This document shows positions 117-22,218 of a DNA stretch of 31,885 nucleotides, in pieces. The DNA is taken from positions 1 to 31,885 of the IMG/VR virus record IMGVR_UViG_3300027782_003828; one strand, 5' to 3'. The translations under genes were made by a program, and so were the position numbers. Below the pieces are notes generated by a model that was not told the DNA's origin, ran no database searches, and saw nothing but the letters and a program-made list of their open reading frames with translations. The DNA is from a virus. The first letter of the stretch is position 1; each line of letters starts with the position of its first letter.

Positions 117-1085
117 ATGATAATTGATTGCGATGCTCATCTTGCTACATTGAATTGTTTTGATCGTTTGAGTGATAGAGACTGGAGAGAATCTTATATA
201 AATGACAACCACGGAAACATAATTCCCATTGAACAACATATATCAGAAGCAAAAACTAAACTAGGTTTACAGAAACAAGTAATTAACTTTTTTGGAGGTT
301 CTGTGGGTTTAGGTTATTCAATTGCTCCAAGTCTAGCTAGAGAAATCATGCAGGTGTATAACAATCACATGATTGATGTGATGTCACACAGCGATAATTT
401 CTTTACTGCCACAGCCTGGTTATCTTTGCAGGATATCAATGCTTGTTTAGAAACAATGAAAAATATTCCAAATAAAAACTTTTTTGGATATTTCATAGAT
501 GATACTATACCATGGGGAAGTATTGAAGAAGTTAAACCAATTTTTCAACGAGCACACGATCAAAATATGCCAGTGTATATTCATATCTCTGGAGGCAAAG
601 CCATGCAAGGCAGATTCTTTAATTATAGATATACTAAAATTATGTCCACGATAAAACAAAGAGAATGGACAGCACAATGCAAGATAGATCCTGTGGATCA
701 ATTTCTTTTAATGTTAGTGAGTTTATTAGAATGCAATTGGTGGAATGATATGCCCAATTTAAAGATAGTGTTGGCTGAAAGAGGCATAGACTGGATCAAT
801 CCTCTACGAGCTTTTATGATAGAACAAGGCCGACCCGATCCTTTGCCACGTCTACAAAACAATTTTTGGTTTACCACAGAGCCAGAACATATTGATTTTA
901 AAAAGCACGGTGATCTAATAGGATGGGATCGTTTGCTATTTGCCACAGATCACGGACATGGTGGTATGGATTGTGGAGGATGGAACTATGGTCGAGATAT
1001 AGAAACAATTAAAAATTTAGGTCTAACACAAGAACAAATGGATCAATTAACGCACAAAAACTTCCAAAAGATTATTCAACGATAA
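117..1085 (+). CDS. Amidohydrolase-2 family metal-dependent hydrolase
   Basis: A 322-residue protein with the TIM-barrel amidohydrolase-2 layout (ACMSD-like decarboxylases and hydrolases). Visible blocks are an N-terminal IIDCDAHL (Asp4, Asp6, His8), YIHISGG (His156), PNLKIVLAERGIDW (about 214-226), which matches the family's strand-7 motif, and LLFATDHGH (Asp278), which matches the usual SDYPH block. The family acts on C-N or C-C bonds of small metabolites, often using Zn. The classic HxH at the N terminus is reduced to DxH, as in several family branches. It ends one base before the convergent radical SAM gene. A role in making or trimming the product of the aminotransferase/amidinotransferase operon is inferred from position; the substrate cannot be read. 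Confidence 0.75.
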   Translation: MIIDCDAHLATLNCFDRLSDRDWRESYINDNHGNIIPIEQHISEAKTKLGLQKQVINFFGGSVGLGYSIAPSLAREIMQVYNNHMIDVMSHSDNFFTATAWLSLQDINACLETMKNIPNKNFFGYFIDDTIPWGSIEEVKPIFQRAHDQNMPVYIHISGGKAMQGRFFNYRYTKIMSTIKQREWTAQCKIDPVDQFLLMLVSLLECNWWNDMPNLKIVLAERGIDWINPLRAFMIEQGRPDPLPRLQNNFWFTTEPEHIDFKKHGDLIGWDRLLFATDHGHGGMDCGGWNYGRDIETIKNLGLTQEQMDQLTHKNFQKIIQR

Positions 1086-1925
1086 TCATTTATATTCCAC
1101 ATTCTTTCTATGATCTATAACGGATTCTAAATCATTCTCTGATGGACATTGTCTACAGATAGAGTGTGGTTTACCAAAGTTATTGATAAACTGTTCTAGC
1201 TCTTGTTCTGAACAATCTGATGATAAACCGTTGGTGATATAATTTTTCCAAAGATCCGTATGAGTATTCTTTTGTTTCTCCAGCATCGGGGGAGTCAAGG
1301 CCGCTGTACCACACTTGAATAGATTACCGTTAAACAATAGAGGACATCGTTTTTGTACGCAAAGAGCAAATGCTTCTCGAGGATCATTGTCATGTGGTAG
1401 CATATCGTTATAAGGGCCACGGAATGTTTTAAAGAATCTCTCTGGACAGTTTATTTGAAACTTAAATTCATTATCAGTACTCCATCGATTGATATTGAAT
1501 TCAGTGACTGGACGCCAATCAAAACGATTCATTATGTATTTTACCATACGATTTATTCTATCATCTTCCACATGGACACTGATCTTAAGAACACTATGTC
1601 CCAGCTCATACAACATATCTATGATGTCTATGTGTTTTTCCAATAGCAACCCATTGGTCACAAATCTTATTTGAGCATCGGGAAGTGTTTCTCTTATGCC
1701 CAATAACCAATCTCTTATGCGAGGATGTATCAATGGTTCTCCACCCATTAATCCTATGGCTTCTATGTTTAGTCTCTGAGACCAATTGATTAACCATTGC
1801 CGATTGGTCTCCCAATCTGAATAATCACCCTGATGTTTGAGATCACTGAATGTGGTACAACCATGACAGCTTAAATTGCAAGAACGCAACATCATTACTT
1901 CTAAGAAAGGAAGATTAAGTTTCAT
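1086..1925 (-). CDS. Radical SAM protein with C-terminal cysteine clusters
   Basis: A 279-residue protein with the radical SAM signature CNLSCHGC (Cys16, Cys20, Cys23), which binds the 4Fe-4S cluster that cleaves S-adenosylmethionine, and the SAM-contacting MGGEP at 60-64. The C-terminal third has further cysteines (CVQKRC, FKCG, CRQC) resembling a SPASM- or twitch-type auxiliary cluster region, common in enzymes that modify peptides or sugars. It is the last gene of the minus-strand operon, and its start overlaps the stop of the TEK-motif gene by 4 bases, suggesting translational coupling. Substrate unknown; modification of a sugar or peptide made by the operon is an inference. Confidence 0.8.
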   Translation of the reverse strand: MKLNLPFLEVMMLRSCNLSCHGCTTFSDLKHQGDYSDWETNRQWLINWSQRLNIEAIGLMGGEPLIHPRIRDWLLGIRETLPDAQIRFVTNGLLLEKHIDIIDMLYELGHSVLKISVHVEDDRINRMVKYIMNRFDWRPVTEFNINRWSTDNEFKFQINCPERFFKTFRGPYNDMLPHDNDPREAFALCVQKRCPLLFNGNLFKCGTAALTPPMLEKQKNTHTDLWKNYITNGLSSDCSEQELEQFINNFGKPHSICRQCPSENDLESVIDHRKNVEYK

Positions 1926-2938
1926 TGACTATTACCTATTCCAAAACATTTCTTTACAGCATCAGCATCTATACTGTTATAAAGTTTATGATTGTGTTCT
2001 AATACGGGCAACATCCTATTATATAAATTTTTTAATTGATCTGCTGGCATTTTAGATATTTTCTCTATTATATCTGACATCATCTGACATCTTAGAGCTC
2101 CTTCTGCTCCATCATATGACTCACTCCAAAACTTATCAAAAGTTTGAAAGCCAATTTGTCGTAAATGTTTTAGAGTATTTTTTGCACCAAACATTAAGAA
2201 CGGTGTTTTAGTTGCAAGAGGTCTTGCTGTTTTCTCACTAAGAAAGAATAGATTACCAGTAAAATAGGTTTCAGTAACTATGTCTACAAAAAACTTATTA
2301 TAAGAATCTAATAAATCATTCGCCAAATGATCATTACAATCACTCGAGAGAACTTGTATAGGTAAATCCGCAATCAGTTTATTAATTTGATTAAAATATT
2401 TTTTATCTAAAAAGTTAAAAAAGAACTGTTCTATATCCATATTAGAAACGTGGGTAGAATTAGACAGGTCTCTCCTGTAAGAGTAAAGACTTTTATCTTT
2501 ATATCTATCATGCAATAGCGAGCCAAAGAACAATCGTGGATAGGTACTGTGTTGTATAAAAGAACCAAAATGATATTTTAACTCTTTGTTGAAGTTTTTA
2601 ATTTTATTCTGAAAAGTAAAAAAAAGATTCCCACTTCCATTCTTAAAATTATAAACTATATTAGGTAAAAGACTTTTATCTTCTATAAGATTAGAAGTGG
2701 TATAGATAATTTTATTCTTATTGTAATTAAACTTTTGGCAACACTTTTCTATTAAAGATAATAGATTAATATCTTGCTTGTATCCTATGGATCGGAGACA
2801 CGGTCCTTCAAACTCATTGTCTAATACAATATCCTGTTGTTGACTCATAGACTCACACATCTCAATCACAAGATCGTTTAGATTGTATATGATACCATCA
2901 CTGGACCAAATTCTTAGAGTCTTAGGAGAAGTAGTCAT
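1922..2938 (-). CDS. TEK-motif glycosyltransferase-like protein, paralogue A
   Basis: A 338-residue protein, one of five paralogues in the window. The shared C-terminal block runs from VTET (about 221-224) through FLSEK (Glu235, Lys236), RPL, TPFLMFG and GFQTFD to ESYD and a closing LEHN motif. The spacing of the acidic ET and the (S/T)EK resembles the donor-binding end of GT10 fucosyltransferases (ENS...YITEK...PVV.G). That relation is inferred from motif shape. Outside this block it most resembles paralogue B (the RYKDKSL and DLP stretches). It overlaps the amidinotransferase by 17 bases and the radical SAM gene by 4. A copy of AATAGCGAGCCA lies inside it on the antisense strand. Confidence 0.6.
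   Translation of the reverse strand: MTTSPKTLRIWSSDGIIYNLNDLVIEMCESMSQQQDIVLDNEFEGPCLRSIGYKQDINLLSLIEKCCQKFNYNKNKIIYTTSNLIEDKSLLPNIVYNFKNGSGNLFFTFQNKIKNFNKELKYHFGSFIQHSTYPRLFFGSLLHDRYKDKSLYSYRRDLSNSTHVSNMDIEQFFFNFLDKKYFNQINKLIADLPIQVLSSDCNDHLANDLLDSYNKFFVDIVTETYFTGNLFFLSEKTARPLATKTPFLMFGAKNTLKHLRQIGFQTFDKFWSESYDGAEGALRCQMMSDIIEKISKMPADQLKNLYNRMLPVLEHNHKLYNSIDADAVKKCFGIGNSQ
2514..2525 (+). repeat. AATAGCGAGCCA, third dispersed copy
   Basis: An exact copy of the 12-mer found at 58 and 78, here preceded by C as in copies 2 and 4. It lies antisense within TEK-motif paralogue A, where it encodes part of a Gly-Ser-Leu-Leu stretch. The aligned paralogue B reads Ser-Ala-Leu-Leu, so the site falls in natural coding sequence, not an obvious insertion. 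Confidence 0.55.
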
Positions 2939-3989
2939 GCTGTTCGCCTTCTCGATATAGATCCTGTGTTAGACAATGCACACCTCCATCCCAAAACCAA
3001 CGATGTCTCTGTGTACATATCACAGGTTCTATCTTATGTTTCTTTAAAAAATTAAAAACTTTTTCGTTATAACTGTTGACCAATACCAGCTCTGGATTGA
3101 TGGACAGCATGTTGACTTCAAACACAGTCTCTTCACAGTAGCCCACCCAATTGCCCAACCAGCTCTCCACATAATTGATCAGTTCATCATTGTGTTCCTC
3201 GCCTTGTATCCACCATTTGCCACCCACTTTCTTCTTCATGGTACGGAAAGGACTCAGCTGATCCCAATACTTGTCTTCTAAATAAAGTATATCCCAACCT
3301 GGAAACTTCTCTGAATAGTTCTGTAGATCGTGTAGAGTGACTATCACTCCTGGTTTTAGAATACACCAAGTGGCATCGCCATGTCCACCCATCTCTTCTG
3401 TGGCTTGTATATTAACTCGAAATCCCTGTGACTCCCACAGTTGCTTGTGATGCCGTATAATGGGAGAGTCTTTCCAACCTGGCGTGTTGGTACCCCAAAA
3501 TATATCTCGACCCAATAGATGTATGAATGATGTACTCAATAATCTCTGTTGATCTGGTATGTTGTTTTGGTCTATGTTTAATTCATAAGTGAAGCTGGGA
3601 TCAGTGTAATCCATGTATCGTTCAGGATAGTACATTTTATCGCTGTCAATGTTGGCAAAGATATAATGATACTCTGGCAAGTTGTTGGCCACAAAACATC
3701 CTTCTCCTACCACAGCCATGTCGTCACGAGTTTGTTGCGGAGGCTTTCTACGATAGGTAGATAGATCATCCGCAGTCTCGCTCATGTTGGGACGATGTAC
3801 CTCTACTCCAAACTTCTTTAGAGTATTGGATAAGTTTTCCAAATCCTCTTTGGTTTCATCTATAACTCTTGCCAATGGAGATAATACTTTATCTTCCTTG
3901 ATGTGTTTAAACTTCTCAATAGGAAACACATCTCCCACAATGGCAGTCTTTAATGGATCAAATGTGCAATAACCTTTTATTGGAATCAT
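2922..3989 (-). CDS. Amidinotransferase family protein, divergent copy
   Basis: A 355-residue member of the glycine/inosamine-phosphate amidinotransferase family (arginine deiminase fold), which moves an amidino group from arginine to an amine through a cysteine intermediate. It shows GGHGDATW (His203, Asp205), matching the HIDAT block, and GGVHCLTQD with the presumed catalytic Cys339 near the C terminus. The FDAAD block of glycine amidinotransferase is not conserved: when GRDIF (160-164) is used as anchor, Ser152 falls where the catalytic Asp is expected. Activity may therefore be altered. It is the second gene of the operon; its start overlaps the aminotransferase by 4 bases, consistent with the aminotransferase supplying the acceptor amine. 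Confidence 0.75.
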   Translation of the reverse strand: MIPIKGYCTFDPLKTAIVGDVFPIEKFKHIKEDKVLSPLARVIDETKEDLENLSNTLKKFGVEVHRPNMSETADDLSTYRRKPPQQTRDDMAVVGEGCFVANNLPEYHYIFANIDSDKMYYPERYMDYTDPSFTYELNIDQNNIPDQQRLLSTSFIHLLGRDIFWGTNTPGWKDSPIIRHHKQLWESQGFRVNIQATEEMGGHGDATWCILKPGVIVTLHDLQNYSEKFPGWDILYLEDKYWDQLSPFRTMKKKVGGKWWIQGEEHNDELINYVESWLGNWVGYCEETVFEVNMLSINPELVLVNSYNEKVFNFLKKHKIEPVICTQRHRWFWDGGVHCLTQDLYREGEQHDYFS

Positions 3990-4582
3990 ACGAATTTTAA
4001 TTCTCTACAATCTGGATAGGGTTTATATTCTGGAGCAAACTGTCCTCTCTCTTGATACTCTTGTAATTTTGTCATAGCAGACTCTGCTTCTTCAATCCTC
4101 ATCATGTAATGATATCCCTGTTCAAATGTCTCTTGCTCTTCCCACCTAGCGACTGACAAGTCTCTGCCATCATTGCTCATTTGTTTTAATCTTTTATAAT
4201 GTTCCTCATTGTCTAATAATACAGCACCACCACGAGTGTTGTCTAATGGTTTGCCTGGACCAAAACTTAGGCATTGGTATTGTCCTGTATGATACATGCC
4301 TGGCCTCAGCATACGAGCACTATCCCATATGGGTGTTTCCTTAAAACGATATTCTCCTAGCCACATATAAAAATTCAAATCATAATTCACTCCCAGCAAT
4401 CGTAGAGTTTGTGGCACAGACAGATAGGTATGAGCAGGCAGAGAGCAAGCCTTTATGTCCAGTAATCTAAAACACAGCTCAATAGCATGAGTACAGCAAT
4501 CGGTGGCTACCACATAAGGTGCTCCTGTGAATTCAGCTAGAGCTTGTTCAAATTTGGTAATTGTATCGTAATTTTTTGTCAT
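3986..4582 (-). CDS. Compact DegT/DnrJ/EryC1/StrS-type aminotransferase
   Basis: A PLP-dependent sugar or cyclitol aminotransferase-like protein of only 198 residues, against roughly 370-400 in the family. It keeps the N-terminal FEQALAEFTGAPYVVATD block, the IWDSAR block (Asp87, expected at the PLP ring nitrogen) and GPGKPLDNTRGG, whose Lys111 is the expected Schiff-base lysine. The segment between the cofactor-binding N terminus and the Asp block is shortened, and most of the C-terminal small domain is missing. No stop or frameshift explains this, and the next gene starts inside its last codons, so it looks like a genuinely reduced form. First gene of the operon with amidinotransferase, TEK-motif and radical SAM genes. 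Activity without the small domain is uncertain. Confidence 0.7.
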   Translation of the reverse strand: MTKNYDTITKFEQALAEFTGAPYVVATDCCTHAIELCFRLLDIKACSLPAHTYLSVPQTLRLLGVNYDLNFYMWLGEYRFKETPIWDSARMLRPGMYHTGQYQCLSFGPGKPLDNTRGGAVLLDNEEHYKRLKQMSNDGRDLSVARWEEQETFEQGYHYMMRIEEAESAMTKLQEYQERGQFAPEYKPYPDCRELKFV

Positions 4583-4598
4583 TGGATAATTAACTGTG

Positions 4599-4606
4599 TA
4601 TTTAAT
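4599..4606 (-). promoter_or_regulatory. Possible promoter core for the aminotransferase operon
   Basis: The minus strand reads ATTAAATA here, 16 bases before the aminotransferase ATG. It sits between divergent genes whose starts are only about 25 bases apart. No -35 match is evident. Confidence 0.35.
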
Positions 4607-4607
4607 T

Positions 4608-5090
4608 ATGCCAGTATTACAGACAGGAAACCTTGGTATTGAAGTTGGTGTGGATTTTCATAATCTACCGTATCGTCGTAAACCCGATGCGGTTATTGAC
4701 AACATGAAAAATCCAGCAGTGCTGGGAGAAATGTTTGCAGACATGGACAACAATGGCACTTACAATTTTGATTACCTAAACACGCAAGGATGGAACAACA
4801 TGGCTTGGTGCTTCTACAGATTGAATCCTGGCTGTGTGGTGCCGAAGCATGTGGATCATTTTATCAACTATATGAAGTATTACAAAATAGAGGATCGATC
4901 CAAGATAGTTAGAATGTTGGTATTCCTAGAAGATTGGAAATCTGGACATTATTTTGAAGCAGATAATCAAAGTTTCACACACTGGCAAGCCATGGACTAT
5001 GTTATGTGGAGTAATGATACTCCTCACCTGGGTGGCAATCTAGGCGATGAGGTAAGATACACTGTGCAGATCACAGGCACAATCAATTAA
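4608..5090 (+). CDS. Fe(II)/2-oxoglutarate dioxygenase-like (Asp/Asn hydroxylase-like)
   Basis: A 160-residue double-stranded beta-helix protein with the iron-binding triad HVD (His81, Asp83) and a distal His140 in NDTPHLGGN, followed by Arg150 in VRYTVQITG, the usual 2-oxoglutarate anchor. The layout resembles aspartyl/asparaginyl beta-hydroxylase and cupin-8-like oxygenases. I start at the ATG at 4608; an in-frame GTG at 4596 would add four residues. The stop abuts the end of the convergent TEK-motif gene. A distant paralogue lies at 20696-21397. These enzymes hydroxylate protein side chains or small molecules; the substrate is not readable. Confidence 0.65.
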   Translation: MPVLQTGNLGIEVGVDFHNLPYRRKPDAVIDNMKNPAVLGEMFADMDNNGTYNFDYLNTQGWNNMAWCFYRLNPGCVVPKHVDHFINYMKYYKIEDRSKIVRMLVFLEDWKSGHYFEADNQSFTHWQAMDYVMWSNDTPHLGGNLGDEVRYTVQITGTIN

Positions 5091-6212
5091 TTATTTTTTA
5101 AATTTTCTTCTCTCAGTGTTCCAACTGGGCCAAACCCAGTTGTCTGGTTGTACTCCCCAATAGAAAGCATCATAGGAATAGGCACCGTAATCTATTTGAT
5201 GTTCTGTAGCTCGATGTGCAGACTCTAATATCTGCTCATTTTCTTGCACTAAATTTTGATAGTTAGATTGACATTTTTTAAATACAAGCACAGGATCACT
5301 GTCTAACAATGCTTGGCAATTTTTTTCTATGTGTGGCCAGTTCTCTCTTAATTTTTGTGGAGTACTGATATCCAGTTGATCATATTCAGGATAAGGTAAA
5401 AACTCTTGAAAGCAATCATATCCTCGATCCTTTAAGTGTTTTAATGTGCCTGGTTGACTTAAAATTATAAACGGGTGATGATTAAAGATTGTTCTAAAAG
5501 TCTTCTCTGTACAAAAATTGTATTCCCAATCCCATTTTACTTTGGTCTCTGGAACTAAACTGAGTTGATGTGTTTGATAAATTGAATGATCATACGGCAC
5601 ACCTGCCATGTGGAATGCTCCTATGTTGCTCTCTCCGTTGGTTACTTGAGCATGATCTGGACTGCCTTGATATTTGTTCACTAATTCTAATATTCTATTC
5701 TCTGATAAATCACACACACCTGTGGCATGTTTCATATCCATGTTGTTGTTCCAGAACAGGCTAGCCGTAAATTTTAATTCACTCTTATCTAAAAGGTCCA
5801 ATACAGGCAGTCTATTGGTGCTAAGAGGTTTTCCTGTTAAGAATAAAATCTTTTTGTTTTGAGCAGTTATTTCTGTGTTATATTTTTGCTCATTGACTTT
5901 GTGATAGAATGCTTGACTCTGTATATTATTATCACAAAACACTATAGGAAATCTCTCCCATTTAGAATCTGGTGGTCTTTTCACTCCTAAATTTAAAAAT
6001 AAACCGATATTTTTATAATTTCTAATACCACACCAATCAATCCAAGCATCCACAGCACGACCGCTGACATCGTTGGTGTGTTCCAACCAAATAAAATTGT
6101 TTGGATTTTCAAATAACAATCTCACTCTATCGTTGAGTTCTTGGTTAGGAAATCCTTTGCAAGAGTCTGGTACTAAATGTTGTACTCGTATGATATGATG
6201 TTTATAACTCAT
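5091..6212 (-). CDS. TEK-motif glycosyltransferase-like protein, paralogue C
   Basis: A 373-residue protein, the most divergent of the five TEK-motif paralogues. It retains PET (221-223), FCTEK (Glu236, Lys237), HPFIILSQPG, LKHLKDRGYDCF and a closing acidic/aromatic region. A middle stretch with KKILFLTGKPLSTNR (about 120-134) resembles the Rossmann-like segment expected before the donor-binding half of a GT-B fold. Its first base is the last base of paralogue B, a 1-base overlap, so the two are probably co-translated. Glycosyltransferase identity is inferred from the motif pattern; an acceptor cannot be suggested. Confidence 0.55.
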   Translation of the reverse strand: MSYKHHIIRVQHLVPDSCKGFPNQELNDRVRLLFENPNNFIWLEHTNDVSGRAVDAWIDWCGIRNYKNIGLFLNLGVKRPPDSKWERFPIVFCDNNIQSQAFYHKVNEQKYNTEITAQNKKILFLTGKPLSTNRLPVLDLLDKSELKFTASLFWNNNMDMKHATGVCDLSENRILELVNKYQGSPDHAQVTNGESNIGAFHMAGVPYDHSIYQTHQLSLVPETKVKWDWEYNFCTEKTFRTIFNHHPFIILSQPGTLKHLKDRGYDCFQEFLPYPEYDQLDISTPQKLRENWPHIEKNCQALLDSDPVLVFKKCQSNYQNLVQENEQILESAHRATEHQIDYGAYSYDAFYWGVQPDNWVWPSWNTERRKFKK

Positions 6213-7216
6213 TATAGATATGTCCTGTTTATTTTTAAAAGAGTTATATCAGCATATACTCTTTTATTGTGTTCTAATGTATCTTCTATATTTTTTAATA
6301 TAGTATTCATTTCTGTTAAAGAGAATTGAGATATTGTATCTAATAATTTTTCCATGTGATGTAGTCTATCCGCTCCTTCGTGATTGTCATAGTCTTCATC
6401 CCAAATATCATTAAAAGTTTTAAATCCCAGTCTTCTTAAATTCTGCAGATAGTTTCGTGGACCAAACACAACAAATGGTGTACCTGTTAATAATGGTCTT
6501 GCCATCTTCTCAGTGAGGTAAAATGTTCGACCTTGGTGCATGGTTTCGCACACCACATCAAGAAATATTTCATCATAGCGATCAATAAAATCATAAGCAC
6601 GATCATAATTGATCCAACCTGTGTTGTTATTGTTTAATCTATCTTCTTCACAGAGATGCATAGGTAAATGATTTACAAAATTTGTTATTTGTTCTAATAA
6701 CTCTCTCTTACAGAATCTAGCCATGTTAGATAATAACTCATCAATGTGTAGATTGGCCGGTTGTTTGGGGTCTTTAAGATGTTGCCAAAAACTTATTAAT
6801 GAATCATCTCTGTATCTATTAAACAATAGAGCAGATAGGTAGAGTCGATGCCACGTGGCTCTGCCAACGAATATACCAAATTTGCTCTTTATATTTTTAA
6901 TTCCTTTATAACTTATTTTTGTACCATATTCAAAAGGATAAACTCCTGGAACAATTTTTATATTTGGCCACACACTCTTATCCTGTATCATGTTTTCAGT
7001 CATGAGTGATATAGATTCTTTCTTCAATGATTGCTCTGTGCAAAACTTCTCTAAAAAATTTAAAAAACCAATATCGTCTACTCTAACACACTCTAGAGCA
7101 GGAGCATCCTCCAATTGTAGATGGATAGTGGACTGTTCTCTGTTGGTTAGTAGATAAGACAGCAGATCTGTTGTGTTAACCACCGAGCCCTCCACTACTT
7201 TGACTGAGAATTGCAT
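6212..7216 (-). CDS. TEK-motif glycosyltransferase-like protein, paralogue B
   Basis: A 334-residue protein closest to paralogue A. It carries CET (223-225), FYLTEK (Glu236, Lys237), ARPLLTGTPFVVFGPRN, LGFKTF, DEDYD and a terminal LEHNKRVY. The N-terminal half also aligns with A (RYRDDSL, HIDELL, NHLP), so A and B are full-length paralogues rather than proteins sharing one domain. A TTAAATA box lies 6 bases before its ATG with no Shine-Dalgarno. It heads a two-gene minus-strand unit with paralogue C and is divergent from the second amidinotransferase. Confidence 0.6.
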   Translation of the reverse strand: MQFSVKVVEGSVVNTTDLLSYLLTNREQSTIHLQLEDAPALECVRVDDIGFLNFLEKFCTEQSLKKESISLMTENMIQDKSVWPNIKIVPGVYPFEYGTKISYKGIKNIKSKFGIFVGRATWHRLYLSALLFNRYRDDSLISFWQHLKDPKQPANLHIDELLSNMARFCKRELLEQITNFVNHLPMHLCEEDRLNNNNTGWINYDRAYDFIDRYDEIFLDVVCETMHQGRTFYLTEKMARPLLTGTPFVVFGPRNYLQNLRRLGFKTFNDIWDEDYDNHEGADRLHHMEKLLDTISQFSLTEMNTILKNIEDTLEHNKRVYADITLLKINRTYL

Positions 7217-7222
7217 GGAAAT

Positions 7223-7229
7223 TATTTAA
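7223..7229 (-). promoter_or_regulatory. Late-type promoter core TTAAATA
   Basis: The minus strand reads TTAAATA, 6 bases before the ATG of TEK-motif paralogue B. There is no Shine-Dalgarno. It is paired with a divergent box at 7247-7254. Confidence 0.5.
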
Positions 7230-7246
7230 CAAACAAAAATCAAAGG

Positions 7247-7254
7247 TTTAAATA
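7247..7254 (+). promoter_or_regulatory. Late-type promoter core TTTAAATA
   Basis: TTTAAATA lies 6 bases before the ATG at 7261, with no Shine-Dalgarno. With the box at 7223-7229 it forms a back-to-back divergent pair inside 44 bases. Confidence 0.5.
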
Positions 7255-7260
7255 AAAACA

Positions 7261-8268
7261 ATGAAAGTCTTTACCAAAAACGAGTATGGTCGTCTAAAAT
7301 CAGTGATAGTGGGTCGAGCAGATCATGCCAATTGGCCCAAAGGAGATATATTCTTTGATAGAATGCTGTCACTGAGTACCTACCCAGGTTCTCTCAAAAT
7401 AGGACCAGTAGCAGACAAAGTGATTGAAGAAACTCGCGAAGACCTATTCGCATTCATAGACCTATTAAAAGAAAATGGAGTATCAGTGCATAGACCCGAA
7501 ATAATGGATTGGAGAAGAACCACAGCATCGCTGGATCATGTCACCACAGGCATGCACAGTTACAGTGCTAGAGACCTTCTACTGTCTGTGGGTAATATGA
7601 TTATTGAATGTCCTACTCCTTTTATCAGCCGACAGAATGAAACACGAGCTTACCATGTGATAAAAAATGAAGCCATAAAAGATGGCTGTCGTTGGATGGC
7701 CGCACCACGAGCTGTGATGGAGACAGCTGAATGTGTGGTAAAAGATAGCAGAATGAATCTCACAGAACGATATCCAATTTTTGATGCTGCCAATGTGTTA
7801 AAGTTTAATGACAAATTATTATATCTAGTTTCCGGCACAGCCAATCATGCAGGCGCAGAATGGTTACAAAAAATAGTGGGCACAGAGTTTGAAGTGATCA
7901 AATGGGAGGGTGTTTATGCTTTCGCTCACATAGATTCCACTCTAACATCTCTAAATGCAGATACTATATTGGTCAATGCTGAGCGAGTCAAAGAAGACAC
8001 TCTACCTAAGTTTTTAAGATCACACAAAAAGATCTGGTTTTCAAAATGCACAGAAAGAAAGTTTCACAAGTTTCCTTATGCCAGTAAATGGATAGGAATG
8101 AATATACTTTCTATAGATCCAGAAACAGTTATAATAGATCCAGCACAAACATTTTTAAAAAAACAATTACAAGAAGCAGGATTCCGAGTATTAGAATCAG
8201 AGCTAAGACACAGTCGTACACTGGGCGGTGGACATCATTGTATAACCTGTGATTTGGAGAGAGAATGA
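7261..8268 (+). CDS. Glycine/inosamine-type amidinotransferase
   Basis: A 335-residue amidinotransferase with all three expected active-site blocks: IFDAAN (Asp175), AHIDST (His223, Asp225) and GGGHHCITCDL (Cys327). These match human glycine amidinotransferase and StrB-type inosamine-phosphate amidinotransferases, which transfer the amidino group of arginine to a primary amine. Length is slightly short of family members. This copy looks catalytically complete, unlike the one at 2922-3989. Its stop overlaps the start of the sugar dehydrogenase by 4 bases (ATGA), so the two are probably coupled. The acceptor could be an amino sugar, a cyclitol or an amino acid; the sequence does not decide. Confidence 0.85.
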   Translation: MKVFTKNEYGRLKSVIVGRADHANWPKGDIFFDRMLSLSTYPGSLKIGPVADKVIEETREDLFAFIDLLKENGVSVHRPEIMDWRRTTASLDHVTTGMHSYSARDLLLSVGNMIIECPTPFISRQNETRAYHVIKNEAIKDGCRWMAAPRAVMETAECVVKDSRMNLTERYPIFDAANVLKFNDKLLYLVSGTANHAGAEWLQKIVGTEFEVIKWEGVYAFAHIDSTLTSLNADTILVNAERVKEDTLPKFLRSHKKIWFSKCTERKFHKFPYASKWIGMNILSIDPETVIIDPAQTFLKKQLQEAGFRVLESELRHSRTLGGGHHCITCDLERE

Positions 8269-9473
8269 AAATAGGATTTATAGGCCTTGGCAAGTTAGGA
8301 ATGCCCTGTGCTGAAGAAATGACACGACAGCACGAAGTGATAGGATATGACGTGGAACACAGAGTAAGCTCACACGTGAAGATAACACAGGATATCAAAA
8401 AAGTATTTGAAGGAACTGAGATAATATTCATAGCAGTGCCTACTCCTCATCACCCAGATTATGATGGATCCAAGCCCACTACACACCTACCAGTGAAGGA
8501 TTTTGATTATTCTTTAGTGATAGATGTATTAAAACAATGTCAACGATATGCTCATAAGAATCAGATAGTGTCTCTGATCAGCACAGTGCTACCAGGCACC
8601 ACACGCAGAGAATTTGCTCGATACACTCGAAACTTTCAATTCGTTTACAATCCTTACCTAATTGCCATGGGATCCGAAGCCTATGATATGGTACACCCAG
8701 ATATGGTGATCATTGGAACAGAATACGGAGAAGACACAATAGCGAGCCAGACGCTGTCTAAGTTCTACAAGAAGCTGATATTAAACAATGCTCAACAGAT
8801 GATCGGCACTTGGGAAGAAGCAGAAGGATTTAAAATATTCTACAACACAATGATATCGGCTCGACTATCGTTGGTCAACATGATTCAAGATGTGGCACAG
8901 AAAATTGGACACATGAATGTGGATAAGATCACAGATGCATTTAAACAAGCTTCTGTAAGGATCACGGGTCAAGGATATTACAAGGCTGGCATGGGCGATG
9001 GAGGTGCTTGCCATCCTCGAGACAATATAGCACTCAGCTGGCTGGCAAAAGAATTAAATTTAGGATATGATCTTTTTGCCGCAATATCTCACAGTCGAGA
9101 ACAGCAAACTCGCAACATGGCAGAATTCATTGCTGATGTGTGTCGCAAAGAGAATAAACCTTGTGTGATAAATGGCAGAGCTTATAAACCCTCAGTGCCA
9201 TACACTATAGGATCTCCCAGTGTGCTATTGGGCGGATATCTAAAAGAGATGGGAATCGATGTTAGCTATGCAGATTCAGAAACGGGAAATATTTTAGTGG
9301 GAGAACAGGACTGTGTGTGCGTGATGACACACGATCCTCAAACCACATACAGCCACACAGGCAAGAAGTACGAACAGAAGTTATACTTTGATTTAAAAGA
9401 AGGTGCTACAGTAATCGATCCATGGCGTTGTTTCAAAGACGACAGATACAAAATAATATATTATGGAAAATAA
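8265..9473 (+). CDS. UDP-glucose/GDP-mannose dehydrogenase family protein
   Basis: A 402-residue nucleotide-sugar dehydrogenase, a family that oxidises the C6 hydroxyl of UDP- or GDP-sugars to a uronic acid with two NAD+. It shows the N-terminal Rossmann loop IGLGKLG (6-12), VPTP (58-61), STVLPGTT (106-113), EGFKIFYN with Lys190 and Asn194, and GDGGACHPRDN with the presumed catalytic Cys249. The C-terminal domain contains NGRAYKP, where the family usually has GlaFKp. The start overlaps the amidinotransferase by 4 bases. A uronic acid, or a keto sugar precursor for amination, would suit the nearby genes. A copy of AATAGCGAGCCA lies inside the gene. Confidence 0.85.
   Translation: MKIGFIGLGKLGMPCAEEMTRQHEVIGYDVEHRVSSHVKITQDIKKVFEGTEIIFIAVPTPHHPDYDGSKPTTHLPVKDFDYSLVIDVLKQCQRYAHKNQIVSLISTVLPGTTRREFARYTRNFQFVYNPYLIAMGSEAYDMVHPDMVIIGTEYGEDTIASQTLSKFYKKLILNNAQQMIGTWEEAEGFKIFYNTMISARLSLVNMIQDVAQKIGHMNVDKITDAFKQASVRITGQGYYKAGMGDGGACHPRDNIALSWLAKELNLGYDLFAAISHSREQQTRNMAEFIADVCRKENKPCVINGRAYKPSVPYTIGSPSVLLGGYLKEMGIDVSYADSETGNILVGEQDCVCVMTHDPQTTYSHTGKKYEQKLYFDLKEGATVIDPWRCFKDDRYKIIYYGK
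8738..8749 (+). repeat. AATAGCGAGCCA, fourth dispersed copy
   Basis: An exact 12-mer match to the copies at 58, 78 and 2514, preceded by C as in two of them. Here it is in the sense strand of the sugar dehydrogenase, encoding Ile-Ala-Ser plus the first base of Gln. Confidence 0.55.
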
Positions 9474-10392: not shown

Positions 10393-11052
10393 CTAAAAGT
10401 CTTTTAAAATCAACAAAGAAAACACTAGATCATCTTTTTTTAATGTCTTTCCTGAACGAAGTGCTGTGATTGTTTCAATATTAAAGTAATTGTATTGATC
10501 AGCATCCGTCTTCTGCTCCCAACTATACATATTGCCAAATCCGTTTTTCTCAGGATTAGGATTGTGGTTTGGAGGAGTAGCACCACTGAATGTGTGATAA
10601 TCTGGATTCCAATCCAATCCGTGTTCAGTGACTAGTATTCTATAACCTTTGCTGACTCTAGCACGCCATGGCCAAAATATTGCCAGTATGTTCCATAGAT
10701 TGTTGCCCTGCTCATCTCGCTCATCCCACACAGTGCCATGCACCATTTCAGTTACTAATATCCGTCTACTTAAAACATTCTCTTGCTCGGTCATGTCAAA
10801 TGGCATGGGTATAGTGAATGATAATCGAGTTAATCCTTGTATGCCTTGACAATGTCTTATGGTTTTATTGTTACGCCATTCGTCTGATCTATACTTCGTT
10901 AAGTCTCCGCGTAGGTTCTTATACCACTCGGGCATGAAGTTTCGACAAGGCTGTGGAGGTGGACATTCTATATCTCGCAAGAAGTCGTCTACTCTTGCTG
11001 ATTCCCATGTGAGGAAATCATTTACTTGAACTGCTACAGGTTGATTAAGCAT
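10393..11052 (-). CDS. Hypothetical protein, 219 aa, with DUF1178 gene
   Basis: A soluble, tryptophan-rich protein I cannot assign. Visible traits are an N-terminal PPPQPCRNFMPEWYKNL stretch, a central TIPMPFD, a WNILAIFWPWRARVSKGYRILVTEHGLDW block and a C-terminal LLILKDF. The pattern of a conserved N-terminal Pro/Trp segment and a beta-rich centre recalls small uncharacterised families shared by phages and bacteria. It overlaps the DUF1178 gene by 8 bases and is co-transcribed with it. No catalytic motif is evident. Confidence 0.55.
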   Translation of the reverse strand: MLNQPVAVQVNDFLTWESARVDDFLRDIECPPPQPCRNFMPEWYKNLRGDLTKYRSDEWRNNKTIRHCQGIQGLTRLSFTIPMPFDMTEQENVLSRRILVTEMVHGTVWDERDEQGNNLWNILAIFWPWRARVSKGYRILVTEHGLDWNPDYHTFSGATPPNHNPNPEKNGFGNMYSWEQKTDADQYNYFNIETITALRSGKTLKKDDLVFSLLILKDF

Positions 11053-11512
11053 CGTCTTTTACATTGGGCAAATGAAATAGGTCTATGCCCTCTTCTAATA
11101 GTTCTTTAACTTCTTCTTTGCTGGGAGTACCATAAAATCGGTCATCCCTCTCACCTTTTTCGTGTTTCCTGTATTCTTTTACGAACCGATCACCCACATT
11201 ATCAAACTCAGTTACGATTTGTTTTCTTATTTTACGCAGAATATCTTTGGCTCTGGATGCTGGTATCATGGTGTCATCTGTGAATTGTCCTCTGTAGAAT
11301 TCTTCTTTGTCCAATTGACTTTTGCTTTTTGTTTTAGTTTTTGTTTTTGTTTTGCCTATCCTAGGAGACATGATAGCTCTGTCCACTTGATTGCTATCAC
11401 ACATGGGACATATCAATAATTTCTTCTCTTGCTGTCGCTCGAATTCTGTTATGTTTGGAAACCATCCATCAAAACGATGTTCGTTGTTACAAATTAATTG
11501 GTATTTGATCAT
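11045..11512 (-). CDS. DUF1178 family protein
   Basis: A 155-residue protein matching the proteobacterial DUF1178 family from end to end: N-terminal MIKYQLICNNEHRFDGWF, a zinc-ribbon-like CPMCDSNQV pair, IMSPRI, then VGDRFVKEYRKHEKGER, YGTPSKEEVKELLEEGID and a closing LP. Zinc binding through CxxC plus the upstream Cys9 and His12 is likely. Function is unknown in any organism I know of. A Lys-Thr repeat (KTKTKTKSKS) fills the linker that is variable in the family. The family is typical of alphaproteobacterial and other proteobacterial chromosomes, so a phage copy points to host-derived DNA. It is first in a two-gene unit behind a sigma70-like promoter. Confidence 0.85.
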   Translation of the reverse strand: MIKYQLICNNEHRFDGWFPNITEFERQQEKKLLICPMCDSNQVDRAIMSPRIGKTKTKTKTKSKSQLDKEEFYRGQFTDDTMIPASRAKDILRKIRKQIVTEFDNVGDRFVKEYRKHEKGERDDRFYGTPSKEEVKELLEEGIDLFHLPNVKDDA

Positions 11513-11575: not shown

Positions 11576-12226
11576 ATGACAAAAAAGATATTAATAACTG
11601 GGTGTAGTTACGGCTGTGGAGAGTGGAGTAATAATCCATACAGTAATACTCACAGGGGCATTGCCGCATATCTCGAAGAAAAAGGCTATACAGTAAATAA
11701 CGTATCAAAACCTGGAGCCAATAATTGTGTGGCATTAGAAAATATAAAAAAAATATACAAAGAGTTTGATCATGTGATTTTTTTATTAACAGCCGTGTCT
11801 CGAGATGTGAACAGTTACTTTCCCTATGATTCTACGGTATCCGCATTGGATAATGCAAATAAAATTGCGAACAGAGTTATAGAAGAGATTTATAAAGTAT
11901 GTGGGACAAAAACCATTTTAGTAGGAGCATTATATAAAGTGCCAGCAAACAATTTAAAATTTTTAGCACAATTCAATGGAGTGGATATACTGATACCCAA
12001 TAACAAATTTCCTGAAAGTTATTTTAATCCTCACGATTTAATGAGCCTACACAATGGTCCAGGTCATATAGATTTAAAAACTTTTAAAAAAGAAATTCTA
12101 AAATGCAATGATGAGTACTTTTGGAAGACCATGGAAGAGCATCCTGAATACTATCAACCCGACGGCGTGCATTGGAACAGAGAAGCACACAGAGTTATCA
12201 CAGAAGAGATATTAAAATATCTATAA
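11576..12226 (+). CDS. SGNH/GDSL-type hydrolase-like protein
   Basis: A 216-residue protein with an N-terminal ILITGCSYGCGEWS, placing the presumed nucleophile Ser11 right after the first strand, KPGANN (46-50) as the Gly/Asn oxyanion blocks, and PDGVHWN with Asp196 and His199 as the C-terminal dyad (DxxH). This is the order of an SGNH esterase/acetylhydrolase fold, whose members deacylate sugars or lipids. No signal peptide is seen. Next to GT17 and methyltransferase genes, sugar O-deacylation or acyl transfer is plausible. The stop overlaps the end of the convergent GT17 gene by 6 bases. Confidence 0.7.
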   Translation: MTKKILITGCSYGCGEWSNNPYSNTHRGIAAYLEEKGYTVNNVSKPGANNCVALENIKKIYKEFDHVIFLLTAVSRDVNSYFPYDSTVSALDNANKIANRVIEEIYKVCGTKTILVGALYKVPANNLKFLAQFNGVDILIPNNKFPESYFNPHDLMSLHNGPGHIDLKTFKKEILKCNDEYFWKTMEEHPEYYQPDGVHWNREAHRVITEEILKYL

Positions 12227-13048
12227 AGACAATAGATCTTTAAATCTATCTATGTTGTTTTGTATGTGAGCGGGCAGTTTCTTAATATCATATAATGACA
12301 AATGATCTGTGTTAAGAGCGTAATTGAATCGTCCACCCCATATATCTTTTTTGTTTGCTACACAATCATCTATGTGTTGTGGAGAAATAAACTCTGCTCG
12401 TTCATTGTGTGCATAAGAGGACACTTTATATAATATATCTTTCGCAGATGAACAATAACTGAAATGCCAACCACCTCTCTGTATAATTTGTTTTTTCAAC
12501 TCGTTATAGATATCCATTTTGATATAAGGACGATCATGTATTCTAAACTCTGCTGGCCAACCCAAATATTGATATCGAATGCCCTTGGAGCCATAGAAAG
12601 GAGTCAATCCAGGATTCAATAGATTTAATTTTAATTGCATACAATCCTGTTTGAATATAAACAAATCATTACTGAGATCCATATTGGATAGTATAGGTAT
12701 CTCGTCAGCATCTGATAATAACACTATATCGTTGGGTTCAGCATCTGACAAACCCAACCCAATGCTGTTGCGAAGATAAAACTCTCTGTACATCTGCTCA
12801 TAGCTAAAATAGGTCCAGTAATTTTTGTTACTGTAATCAGCTCTACCATCTGTGACAGGATGGTATCTTATTTTGTGTTTAAACTTTGGAAAATTGTCTG
12901 TATTGAATAGATATTGTTTAGATTGTCCAGAAAAAGTAGTGTTGGATTCCACAATAACAAAATAATCCACACGTGAGTCAAGCTCATGGAATCTTATTTC
13001 AGCAAGGTCCTGCTCACCATTATATAGAAAGCAATCATAGATTTTCAT
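12221..13048 (-). CDS. Glycosyltransferase family 17 (MGAT3-like)
   Basis: A 275-residue protein matching GT17, the family of beta-1,4-mannosyl-glycoprotein N-acetylglucosaminyltransferase. It has the family opening KIYDCFLYNGEQDLAEIRF, then VDYFVIVESNTTFSGQSK and the metal/donor motif LSDADEIP (Asp113-Pro118), and a C-terminal GGWHFSYC block. Such enzymes use UDP-sugars; bacterial and phage members generally lack a membrane anchor, as here. The start overlaps the methyltransferase gene by 14 bases, so they form a two-gene unit. Donor and acceptor are unknown. Confidence 0.85.
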   Translation of the reverse strand: MKIYDCFLYNGEQDLAEIRFHELDSRVDYFVIVESNTTFSGQSKQYLFNTDNFPKFKHKIRYHPVTDGRADYSNKNYWTYFSYEQMYREFYLRNSIGLGLSDAEPNDIVLLSDADEIPILSNMDLSNDLFIFKQDCMQLKLNLLNPGLTPFYGSKGIRYQYLGWPAEFRIHDRPYIKMDIYNELKKQIIQRGGWHFSYCSSAKDILYKVSSYAHNERAEFISPQHIDDCVANKKDIWGGRFNYALNTDHLSLYDIKKLPAHIQNNIDRFKDLLSL

Positions 13049-17542: not shown

Positions 17543-18136
17543 ATGAATAACAAATTTCCAGAATTTATTTTTGTCACAGGAGTGATAGGATCCATGTGGA
17601 CAGCTCTCATAGAAAATGTACAAGAATCTGGAGAGTTTAATATCACTGATAGAAATTCCTCTAGACAATTTACCCATCATGGTAAAATACGACACCTAGG
17701 AGTATTTTTTGGCAGAGATCAAGAATATAAATGCAATCTAGATTATGCTAATCTTGTGGCTCCGTTCCGAGACAAGAGCGGATCTAAAATAGTGAAAGCA
17801 CACGAGTGGGCACTGATGTTGGATGAGATTAAAGAAAAATATCCTTCGAGTTGGATATGGCTGATATATCGTCCCAATGATGTTGCTTTAACTTGGTGGA
17901 ACAAAGCGGGTGGATATGATATCGTTCATCCTATAAATGGTTGTGGACCAAAGAATTTCTATGATTCACAATATGAAGTGGCCAAACAGAATGAAGCAAT
18001 TATGGAATTTGGATTAAAACATAATGCTGTTTGGTATCATAACACTCCAAAATTTTATCAAGAAGTGTTTGGCATCAATGTAAATTTAGAAAATTTATCT
18101 GCCAATTCCAGCATATTGAACGCAGTTATAAAATGA
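17543..18136 (+). CDS. Sulfotransferase-like protein upstream of tctA
   Basis: A 197-residue protein whose N terminus, FIFVTGVIGSMWTALI (9-24), resembles a sulfotransferase PAPS loop with the Lys/Ser-Gly-Thr residues replaced (GVIGSMW against PKSGTTW). A later KIVKAHEW and WLIYRPNDVALTWWNKAG fit the second strand and the R.P.D...SW 3'-phosphate block, with Arg in place. So the fold is probably sulfotransferase, but the loop is degenerate. Its stop overlaps the start of the permease gene by 4 bases (ATGA), so it is translationally coupled to a transporter, an odd pairing. Confidence 0.55.
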   Translation: MNNKFPEFIFVTGVIGSMWTALIENVQESGEFNITDRNSSRQFTHHGKIRHLGVFFGRDQEYKCNLDYANLVAPFRDKSGSKIVKAHEWALMLDEIKEKYPSSWIWLIYRPNDVALTWWNKAGGYDIVHPINGCGPKNFYDSQYEVAKQNEAIMEFGLKHNAVWYHNTPKFYQEVFGINVNLENLSANSSILNAVIK

Positions 18137-19605
18137 TAGAACTACTGACGCAATATCTACCCATTCTACTGATTGGTGTGGGATACGGATTTCTTTTTGG
18201 ATTGATTCCTGTAGCTGGTGCTCAAGTGGCTTTGATTGCTCTGTTTCCTTATGCTGAACATTTCATGGGAGATCCTTACAGCATGGTTGTAATGACCACT
18301 GCAGTGGTTATATCGGCGACAATTGGAGACATGTTCAGTTCTGTGGTATTGAATATACCTGGCGGTGCAGGATCGGCAGCAACTATGATTGATGGATTCC
18401 CTATGGCTAAAAGAGGAGAGGCAGCTCGAGCTCTATCTGCTGGATTGTGTTCTGCCGCAGCACAGTCATTGATTTGGGGTTTTTTGTTTATTGTGTTGTT
18501 GCCTTATTATGTTAAAATAGTATATCTCTTTGGCATGCCAGAGATGCTGTTGTTTTTAATACTGGCCATGACAGTCATCTGTTTTGTTTCTAACAAATAC
18601 TGGATTAGAGGAATCGTTGCTCTAGTATTTGGAATTTGCGTGGGTTTAATCGGTGAGGTTCCAGAAGTAGTGGGCGAGTATAGATGGACATTTGGTTGGG
18701 ACTATCTCAAATCTGGTATAGAAATATTGCCTGTAATGGCAGGTGTACTCGCAATGCCTGAAATAATTGAAGGTGTTCTTGGAAAGACAAAAGCAGCCAC
18801 CAAAATTAAAAATACCTGGGCACAGATGTGGCAGGGAGTTAAAGATTGTTGGAAGTATCGCTGGGACAGTTTTCGAGGTGGTGTAGTTGGAGGCATCATT
18901 GGTGCTCTACCCGGATTGGGCGGAGGTATTGGCGATTATATTGCTTACAGTCTAACAGCAATTAATAAAAGGAAAGATGATAAAGTTCCATTCGGCAAAG
19001 GCAACGTGAGAGGCGTAATTGGTCCAGAAGGAGCCAACCTTTCCCACAAAGCCACAGCTTATTTTCCAACTGTTTTATTTGGTATACCCGGAGCACCATT
19101 TGAGATATTGGTGTTAGCCTTACTGGCCTATGTGGGGTTGGATCTAGGCAGTCCTCGTTTGTTGGCTAATCAAGATTTTTTTACTGTGCTAAGTTTTGGA
19201 TACATGGCTGCTCTATTGGTCACTGTGATAATCTCTATATTCTTCATTAGGTATGCTATTAAATTAACACAGATACCCAAGAAAATTTGGTTTCCGTTTT
19301 TGTTAATAGTGATAGTATGGTCTTGTACAAGGCACACAGGCGGATGGAATGATTATATAATATTAGGAATATTTTGTGCAATAGGGTTCATTATGCGATA
19401 TCTCAAAATGAATCGCGTTGCATTCTTGATTGGCTTTGTGTTAGCGGCCAAGATAGAAAAAATAGGAGGAGCATATTGGCAGTTGTATCACAAAGAACCA
19501 TTTATATTCTTAACCAGACCCATGAGCTTGTTCCTATTGATTACCATAATCTGTATCATAATATACGCACTCAGATTTAAAGGCAACAAAATAGAGTACT
19601 ATTAA
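18133..19605 (+). CDS. TctA-type permease of a tripartite tricarboxylate transporter
   Basis: A 490-residue multi-pass membrane protein with the TctA signature: NIPGGAGSAATMIDGFPMAKRG (about 74-95, written here in part as PGGAGSAAT and DGFPMAKRG), then ALPGLGGGIGDYIAYSL in the second half and LFGIPGAPFEI. Hydrophobic stretches number about 11 or 12, and the length is that of full TctA. In bacteria TctA is the large permease, working with small TctB and periplasmic TctC to import citrate or other di/tricarboxylates using an ion gradient. No TctB-like gene is present here or fused to it. The gene is followed after 39 bases by a TctC-like gene. A transporter in a phage genome is unusual. Confidence 0.85.
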   Translation: MIELLTQYLPILLIGVGYGFLFGLIPVAGAQVALIALFPYAEHFMGDPYSMVVMTTAVVISATIGDMFSSVVLNIPGGAGSAATMIDGFPMAKRGEAARALSAGLCSAAAQSLIWGFLFIVLLPYYVKIVYLFGMPEMLLFLILAMTVICFVSNKYWIRGIVALVFGICVGLIGEVPEVVGEYRWTFGWDYLKSGIEILPVMAGVLAMPEIIEGVLGKTKAATKIKNTWAQMWQGVKDCWKYRWDSFRGGVVGGIIGALPGLGGGIGDYIAYSLTAINKRKDDKVPFGKGNVRGVIGPEGANLSHKATAYFPTVLFGIPGAPFEILVLALLAYVGLDLGSPRLLANQDFFTVLSFGYMAALLVTVIISIFFIRYAIKLTQIPKKIWFPFLLIVIVWSCTRHTGGWNDYIILGIFCAIGFIMRYLKMNRVAFLIGFVLAAKIEKIGGAYWQLYHKEPFIFLTRPMSLFLLITIICIIIYALRFKGNKIEYY

Positions 19606-19608
19606 ATA
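19601..19608 (+). promoter_or_regulatory. Late-type promoter core ATTAAATA before tctC-like gene
   Basis: ATTAAATA overlaps the tctA stop codon and lies 36 bases before the next ATG. A Shine-Dalgarno-like AAAGGAAAT follows before that ATG. The binding protein may thus be made in excess over the permease. Confidence 0.4.
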
Positions 19609-19644
19609 ATTTTACCAAAATAAAAGAAAACAAAAGGAAATAAA

Positions 19645-21400: not shown

Positions 21401-22207
21401 TTATTCTTGTGTATATTCCTCACCGCTGACCTTTTTAGCGATATGAGCCACATAGTTGGTCATGCTGTGATCACTGAAGTTTTTGAATGATCCTTTTTTA
21501 ATGCCCTTCCATATGCCTCGGAATTTGTCTTTGATTCTTTGCCAGTATGTGAACTCTCTCACATTACCAAAATTATTAAGATAACGAATAGTGCCGTGAT
21601 GTATGTAACCCATGATAGCCAGTGGCACTGTGGTCACTTGATCAGCATTGTTAACCCAACGCCAGTGCGGCACATGTAGATTGTTTACAAATCCTCTCCA
21701 ACCTGCTCGTGGCGAACCAAATGTGAATATAGCACCAATAATGATATGTGGAGCATGATAAAAACATCTTGCGGCGCAGAGTGTGGTCATGGCAGCACCT
21801 AGACTGTGTCCAGTGAACCATGTCATTTTTTCTGAAGTTTCAATCTGTGCTTTGATACCCGCCCAAATTTTATCTGCTTCTCGTTTAAATCCTAGATGTA
21901 CCAATCCCATAGTTTGGCTGCGTACTGGCAGTGCATTCATATCTGCTGCTAGATCACTCAATTCAGTGGGTTCTGTGCCTCGACATGCAACCACTAAATC
22001 CTTAGCAGTTTCAAAAGTGTAACCTTGAGCACCATTGTGATCAAAGAAATGCACTTCTGTAAATCCTATTTCTTTGGCCTGTGCTGTGGCCTGTTTCTCG
22101 TCATTGTAGGCTATTAGGCTTAACTCAGCAAACAATAGACTCTGCTGATACACATCCAATTCTTGTATGTTTAGTGTTTTGCCATTCTGTATCAAGTTTG
22201 TGATCAT
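21401..22207 (-). CDS. Class 3 lipase (alpha/beta hydrolase)
   Basis: A 268-residue lipase_3-type protein. The elbow FTGHSLGAAMTT places the nucleophile at Ser135; NNADQVTTVP gives Asp189 and DHSMTNYV gives His247, a full catalytic triad. LVVACRGTEP (71-80) is the family's oxyanion-side strand. I start at the ATG at 22207, because TTAAATA sits 4 bases upstream; in-frame codons further upstream cross that box. No signal peptide is seen. It would cleave acyl esters, perhaps host membrane lipid, inside the cell. It is a lone minus-strand gene, convergent with the dioxygenase. Confidence 0.8.
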   Translation of the reverse strand: MITNLIQNGKTLNIQELDVYQQSLLFAELSLIAYNDEKQATAQAKEIGFTEVHFFDHNGAQGYTFETAKDLVVACRGTEPTELSDLAADMNALPVRSQTMGLVHLGFKREADKIWAGIKAQIETSEKMTWFTGHSLGAAMTTLCAARCFYHAPHIIIGAIFTFGSPRAGWRGFVNNLHVPHWRWVNNADQVTTVPLAIMGYIHHGTIRYLNNFGNVREFTYWQRIKDKFRGIWKGIKKGSFKNFSDHSMTNYVAHIAKKVSGEEYTQE

Positions 22208-22211
22208 ACTG

Positions 22212-22218
22212 TATTTAA
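22212..22218 (-). promoter_or_regulatory. Late-type promoter core TTAAATA
   Basis: The minus strand reads TTAAATA, 4 bases before the lipase ATG chosen here. A matching plus-strand box lies at 22276-22282, giving a divergent pair. Confidence 0.5.

Follow-up and report, generated by a model that had tools for sequence, protein, structure and literature searches.

Gene content and source of the window

The viral contig IMGVR_UViG_3300027782_003828 (IMG/VR) was analysed over its whole length of 31,885 bp (the window; G+C 36.6%), with emphasis on a gene cluster around an amidinotransferase, here called AT1. Guanidine, the group that gives arginine its charge, also occurs in streptomycin, and guanidinylation by enzymes of the StrB1 type has been known chiefly from the biosynthesis of antibiotics and toxins. 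The window probably comes from a T4-like marine phage: its DUF6267 protein is otherwise almost confined to T4-like cyanophages and pelagiphages, and the window also has a phrog_298 exonuclease and a weak match to a virion protein. An earlier, sequence-only reading of this DNA had proposed a streptidine-like guanidino-sugar pathway, and every gene that it named corresponds to an open frame at or inside its assigned position. The plus-strand group of the cluster consists of three genes, the last two of which overlap by 4 bp.

4596..5090, plus strand: 2OGa, an Fe(II)/2-oxoglutarate (2OG) oxygenase with the HxD..H motif (H80, D82, H139) and R149 (alignment, model, Foldseek)
7261..8268, plus strand: AT1, 335 aa, a predicted StrB1-type (inosamine-phosphate) amidinotransferase with the active site D105/D175/H223/D225/C327 (1bwd match, residues, tree)
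8265..9473, plus strand: dehydrogenase of the UDP-glucose/GDP-mannose family, phrog_9148 (UDPG_MGDP_dh in Pfam, 4.5e-19; PHROG, 5e-81)

AT1 resembles the StrB1 type of amidinotransferase

AT1 aligned end to end with StrB1 (PDB 1bwd) at E=2.5e-63, a value which, over the full length, means that the match did not arise by chance; the match to AGAT was much weaker, and identity was 38% to StrB1 and 28% to AGAT. D105, H223, D225, N281 and C327 were kept in all 72 non-redundant phage relatives of AT1, and D175 in 70 of them. When diagnostic conserved positions were compared, 25 were shared by AT1 and StrB1 but not by AGAT, and 3 showed the reverse. A tree of 100 rows, obtained by a quick search without bootstrap, separated 70 phage AT1 sequences and four cellular proteins from AGAT and the others with a Shimodaira-Hasegawa-like approximate likelihood ratio (SH-aLRT) value of 98. 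The four cellular proteins were StrB1, a StrB1-like protein of Streptomyces, and plasmid-borne ones from Robbsia and Amycolatopsis; StrB1 relatives of cellular origin occur on plasmids. Together, the tree and the residues argue that AT1 is of the StrB1 type, and against its being a deiminase or an AGAT. A deiminase reading was rejected because only the last 57 residues matched ADI while the full-length matches were amidinotransferases, and an AGAT (glycine) reading is disfavoured by the tree and the diagnostic residues.

The AT1 profile found at least 579 viral stretches versus 7 loci in 84,980 species genomes; the scans were pattern-based, so that both counts are underestimates. Two of the 7 loci (L035 and L036, labelled Verrucomicrobia and Bacteroidetes) fell inside the phage AT1 clade and are probably phage contigs binned with bacteria.

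A dehydrogenase and a 2OG oxygenase accompany AT1

Gene neighbourhoods were compared among the best 80 loci per scan, most of which are contig fragments. Within 8 kb of the 72 non-redundant AT1 loci, we found a 2OG oxygenase gene at 57, a gene for a TEK-motif protein (described below) at 56, the dehydrogenase at 52 and miniDegT, a half-size DegT gene, at 15. At 43 of the 72, the dehydrogenase and 2OG genes occurred together within three genes, on one and the same strand. In the usual order, a TEK-motif gene on the opposite strand is followed by the dehydrogenase, the 2OG oxygenase and AT1, all pointing the same way, with a typical overlap of 4 bp between the 2OG and AT1 genes. The conserved core around AT1 is therefore the dehydrogenase, the 2OG-Fe(II) oxygenase and AT1 itself, often with a TEK-motif gene. 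Its constant partner, the 2OG oxygenase, had not been singled out in the sequence-only reading.

The dehydrogenase was far rarer elsewhere, occurring near 12 of 63 loci anchored on miniDegT and 11 of 60 anchored on the second amidinotransferase, AT2 (in the latter nearly always where AT1 was also present), which makes the link specific to AT1. The genes occur in combination in other phages as well, and about a dozen close relatives show the arrangement AT2-(miniDegT)-2OG-AT1-dehydrogenase in synteny. At 23 of the 72 loci, a gene a short way downstream of AT1 encodes a 421-aa protein that looks fibre-like to the eye (e.g. L105, 11664-12926), for which no family was recognised.

AGAT, HsvA and other relatives of these enzymes act on amino acids or polyamines, and the cellular relatives of AT1 were found in varied small-molecule clusters, such as that for guanitoxin. 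Guanidinoacetate methyltransferase has been reported in ocean viruses by an ocean survey (PMC11360552). All of this would suit the main rival to a sugar pathway. In that view, the acceptor of the amidinotransferases is a small amine or an amino acid, such as glycine, lysine, a polyamine or ethanolamine, the product is a guanidino compound, free or as a head group, and the sugar genes are neighbours in a hypervariable glycan island. The position of AT1 on the StrB1 side of the tree speaks against this, and the operon tie of AT1 to the dehydrogenase and 2OG oxygenase across very divergent phages argues for one pathway. We consider the small-molecule explanation somewhat unlikely, but a serious contender.

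The dehydrogenase has lost residues of thioester hydrolysis

The dehydrogenase scored 167 bits with its NCBIfam model, under the cut-off of 189.8. Catalytic Cys249, Lys190, Asn194 and Asp253 were retained in all 50 full-length members of the family. In the same 50 sequences, Glu141 was replaced by Tyr, so that the Pro-Glu motif reads Pro-Tyr, and Tyr10 by Lys or Arg (Lys in the window). In nucleoside diphosphate (NDP)-sugar dehydrogenases the Pro-Glu motif with Glu141 is described as invariant, and Tyr10, which is 98% conserved, is credited with thioester hydrolysis (PMC4794789). With both residues replaced, it is doubtful that the enzyme hydrolyses the thioester in the standard way, and a free uronic acid cannot safely be predicted as its product; an aldehyde or acyl transfer is possible.

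The model of 2OGa had a predicted local distance difference test (pLDDT) score of 88.9, and Foldseek placed it in the 2OG oxygenase fold, a double-stranded beta-helix. No close family naming a substrate was found.

The minus-strand group: miniDegT, AT2 and TEK-motif proteins

On the minus strand, the genes for TEK-motif proteins c and b, miniDegT, AT2, TEK-motif protein a and a radical SAM protein succeed one another with small overlaps.

6212..7216, minus strand: TEK-motif protein c, glycosyltransferase family 10 (GT10)-like, unproven (ET...TEK...G motif, clustering)
5091..6212, minus strand: TEK-motif protein b, GT10-like, unproven (ET...TEK...G motif, clustering)
3986..4582, minus strand: miniDegT, half-size DegT protein of 198 aa with the pyridoxal phosphate (PLP) lysine K111 and D87, no C-terminal domain (PF01041, 1.1e-16)
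2922..3989, minus strand: AT2, divergent amidinotransferase; D89, H203, D205 and C339 kept, Asp of the FDAAN motif lost (profile, hhalign, alignment)
1922..2938, minus strand: TEK-motif protein a, GT10-like, unproven (ET...TEK...G motif, clustering; profile searches negative)
1086..1925, minus strand: radical SAM protein 1 (PF04055, 9.6e-11; also paired with miniDegT in Synechococcus phage S-SCSM2R)

Both overlaps described in the sequence-only reading, that of the DegT gene with an amidinotransferase gene (miniDegT and AT2) and that of a second, catalytically complete amidinotransferase gene with a dehydrogenase gene (AT1), were found, each of 4 bp. It had taken them to mean coupled expression of these activities. 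The overlaps are real; since the two pairs lie on opposite strands, they form two transcription units, with one amidinotransferase in each.

The DegT assignment held as to family, by the PF01041 match and the PLP lysine, but the protein is about half a normal enzyme: 198 aa versus about 360-400 aa for a two-domain DegT/StsC enzyme. Such half-size proteins were the smallest DegT-like ones met in the analysis. K111, D87, S106 and other PLP-site residues were kept in all 20 aligned members. The model (pLDDT 92.7) matched WlaRG, perosamine synthase, WbpE and BtrR in Foldseek, with TM-scores of about 0.7 by the length of miniDegT and about 0.4 by that of the target, from which the C-terminal domain is seen to be missing. 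miniDegT may still work, perhaps by means of residues from a partner subunit. Its viral family numbers at least 594 stretches. The neighbours of the 63 non-redundant miniDegT loci, clustered by sequence, were GT4-like at 40, GalE-like at 31 and FolE-like at 47. The FolE-like (GTP cyclohydrolase I-like) gene adjoins miniDegT (e.g. L161, 7030-7728), a puzzling combination. An amidinotransferase lay within about 10 kb at 13 of these loci and at none of the other 50, for which reason DegT was rejected as an obligate partner of amidinotransferase; miniDegT is probably a general sugar gene and not part of the amidination step in particular.

These findings bear on the streptidine-like pathway, in which a cyclitol would be oxidised, transaminated by DegT and guanidinylated by the amidinotransferases. 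That AT1 is of the StrB1 type, and that the fold matches of miniDegT include the 2-deoxy-scyllo-inosose aminotransferase BtrR, would fit such a route. The proposed succession of steps was not borne out, since the dehydrogenase belongs to the sugar C6 family and not to the StrI/GMC type found beside true StrB1, the DegT protein is half-size and optional (near 15 of the 72 AT1 loci), and a Pfam scan of the main open frames of the window detected no cyclitol synthase, inositol dehydrogenase, kinase or phosphatase. A genuine StrB1 locus has a full-length DegT gene, a streptomycin-biosynthesis dehydrogenase and a GMC oxidoreductase adjoining, none of which is present here. The streptidine reading is thus partly supported; the streptidine pathway as such is unlikely, and the full cyclitol route very much so.

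The AT2 profile matched AGAT (5.6e-17), StrB1, HsvA and SxtG among solved structures; all confident matches were amidinotransferases and none was a deiminase, a reading that was therefore rejected for AT2. Alignment of AT2 to AT1 by hhalign gave a probability of 99.8%, and in the 100-row tree AT2 formed its own long-branched clade. By these comparisons AT2 falls with the amidinotransferases, not the deiminases, and the profiles and tree agree with the sequence-only reading in keeping both enzymes out of the deiminase/dihydrolase branches. AT2 was also rejected as an obligate partner of AT1, which was nearby in just 11 of 60 non-redundant AT2 loci. A second, distant copy of AT2 is present at 13994-15061 of L002, a contig very close to the window.

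AT2, and perhaps miniDegT, might be degenerate or repurposed, which would leave AT1 and its operon as the sole relevant part. The lost aspartate of AT2 points this way (S, N or T stands at the position aligned with the Asp of FDAA(N/D) in most of 91 sequences, where the alignment is uncertain), as does the whole domain missing from miniDegT. Conservation within the families argues otherwise: C339, H203 and D205 of AT2 were kept in 91 of 91, D89 in 89 and R/D in ~97%, K111, D87 and S106 of miniDegT in 20 of 20, and each family has hundreds of viral members. We judge degeneration to be unlikely.

At 14 of the 60 non-redundant AT2 loci (e.g. L218, 11405-12289), a neighbouring gene was QueE-like by sequence, with a possible link to deazaguanine modification of DNA. 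DNA had been one of the targets named for a guanidino group, and AT2 could, for example, guanidinylate an aminomethyl-deazaguanine. Modification of a nucleobase or of DNA is nevertheless highly improbable here. The Pfam scan of the window recognised no QueE, QueC, FolE or DNA transglycosylase, the QueE link was absent from the neighbour clusters seen at AT1 loci, and it may reflect shared synteny of one phage group.

The TEK-motif proteins were tested as GT10 enzymes by profile, PDB and pairwise comparison: 1 of 28 members matched at E=0.009, there was no PDB match and the alignment to annotated GT10 was weak. These comparisons did not confirm a firm GT10 assignment. The frame at 1922-2938, considered as an amidinotransferase, encodes TEK-motif protein a instead.

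Other genes of the window

The remaining gene of the cluster lies at its edge.

117..1085, plus strand: amidohydrolase-2-like protein (E=0.0017, under the Pfam cut-off; also present in the relative L021; linkage loose)

As to the accompanying genes that had been reported with the amidinotransferases, the radical SAM and dioxygenase genes were recovered, the amidohydrolase remained under the cut-off, and the glycosyltransferase-like (TEK-motif) genes were unrecognised by profile. A clear match to a GT17 glycosyltransferase lies at 12221-13048, beyond the cluster. A DUF1178 protein (11045-11512) is retained near the cassette in most close relatives. At 18133-20694, TctA adjoins a TctC-like solute-binding protein, forming a tripartite tricarboxylate transporter pair that was also found in L008, L009, L011, L023 and L032. 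A class 3 lipase gene is present in this phage window at 21401-22249 (PF01764, 8e-16), and two more radical SAM proteins, one with a SPASM domain, adjoin the exonuclease gene at 29029-31352.

Proposed function of the cassette

The families present, their conserved active sites, the gene order and the coupling by overlap are the observations from which we propose that this phage cassette produces a sugar or glycan unit bearing a guanidino group, with which the virion or host surface would be decorated. We hold the chances of this proposal to be about even. The dehydrogenase and 2OG oxygenase would oxidise an activated sugar. With arginine of the host as amidino donor, AT1 would guanidinylate an amine carried by the sugar or by a second molecule that is to be linked to the sugar. 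In this phage the amine may be supplied by miniDegT; phages that lack miniDegT would draw on the host or on another phage gene. Joining the finished unit to a glycan of the virion or host surface would fall to the linked transferase-like proteins. A glycan is the likeliest destination in view of the glycosyltransferases in S-SCSM2R, the GalE- and GT4-like genes beside miniDegT, and the family of the dehydrogenase. The case for predicted amidino transfer by AT1 is strong, that for a sugar or glycan as its acceptor moderate, and that for the order of steps and final location weak.

Several points weigh against the proposal. The evidence for the cassette is sequence-based, and sequence does not reveal the acceptor. 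The amine-making enzyme is not constant, miniDegT being present in 15 of the 37 records searched whole. The dehydrogenase has lost residues of UDP-glucose dehydrogenase and may therefore act on something other than a nucleotide sugar, and profiles fail to recognise the TEK-motif proteins as glycosyltransferases.

A more specific version can be put forward as speculation. Because the altered dehydrogenase lacks the residues of thioester hydrolysis yet has the catalytic Cys, a stop at the aldehyde or an acyl transfer is conceivable. In a virus-specific guanidino-sugar route, the dehydrogenase would stop at the C6 aldehyde, amination by miniDegT or another enzyme would follow, and AT1 would yield a 6-guanidino sugar; alternatively, the C6 acyl thioester would be handed to an amine, forming an amide. 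A further oxidation would be carried out by the 2OG oxygenase, and the operon, spread across many uncultured phages, would equip virions or infected cells with a cationic glycan. We regard this detailed route as distinctly doubtful.

If the general proposal of a guanidino-bearing glycan unit is true, guanidinylation of the StrB1 type exists in tailed phages, encoded by a conserved operon whose targets are probably glycans. To our knowledge, the attachment of guanidine to sugar-like molecules has hardly been described in viruses. Guanidino groups are strongly cationic and could alter adsorption, receptor masking, superinfection exclusion and enzyme sensitivity.

Comparison with known systems

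A literature search, with subscription papers outside its scope, found nothing that pairs a phage with a guanidino sugar or an inosamine-phosphate amidinotransferase, and no mention of the dehydrogenase-2OG-AT1 operon in the literature searched. The closest characterised protein is StrB1 (1bwd), to which AT1 is linked by full-length homology, catalytic residues, its side of the tree and StrB1-specific residues. AT1 differs in that it is phage-borne, no streptidine genes accompany it, and its gene is coupled to those of a C6-type dehydrogenase and of a 2OG oxygenase. The sugar aminotransferases WlaRG, GDP-perosamine synthase, WbpE and BtrR share the PLP-domain fold and key residues with miniDegT, which is half their size and lacks their C-terminal domain.

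Among phages, Timms et al. (2010, PMC2853527) described interchangeable clusters in Campylobacter phages CP220 and CPt10, in which five radical SAM genes occur together with a gene for a putative glycine amidinotransferase. Like the window, these phages have a module of amidinotransferase, radical SAM and glycosyltransferase-like genes; in contrast to it, their amidinotransferases branch deeply, the five radical SAM genes predominate, and a dehydrogenase-2OG-AT1 operon was not observed. The phrog_9148 dehydrogenases of Pelagibacter phage HTVC008M (L114) and Synechococcus phage Bellamy (L115) share the NPYLIA signature with the dehydrogenase of the window; their neighbours are NadE-like, carbamoyltransferase and methyltransferase genes, and no amidinotransferase is found there. 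The placing of these Pro-Tyr dehydrogenases by NadE-like and carbamoyltransferase genes suggests amide or carbamoyl sugars.

Synechococcus phage S-SCSM2R (PQ898602) has miniDegT, radical SAM, glycosyltransferase, 2OG, AT1 and GT2 genes in one run beside annotated glycosyltransferases, and carries a gene annotated as inosamine amidinotransferase. AT2 and another 2OG gene are located elsewhere in its genome. It differs from the window in that its annotated UDP-glucose dehydrogenase belongs to the ordinary NPEF type and is encoded ~35 kb away. The cassette offers an unusual NDP-sugar-dehydrogenase-like enzyme, and S-SCSM2R is an isolate with AT1, 2OG and miniDegT genes.

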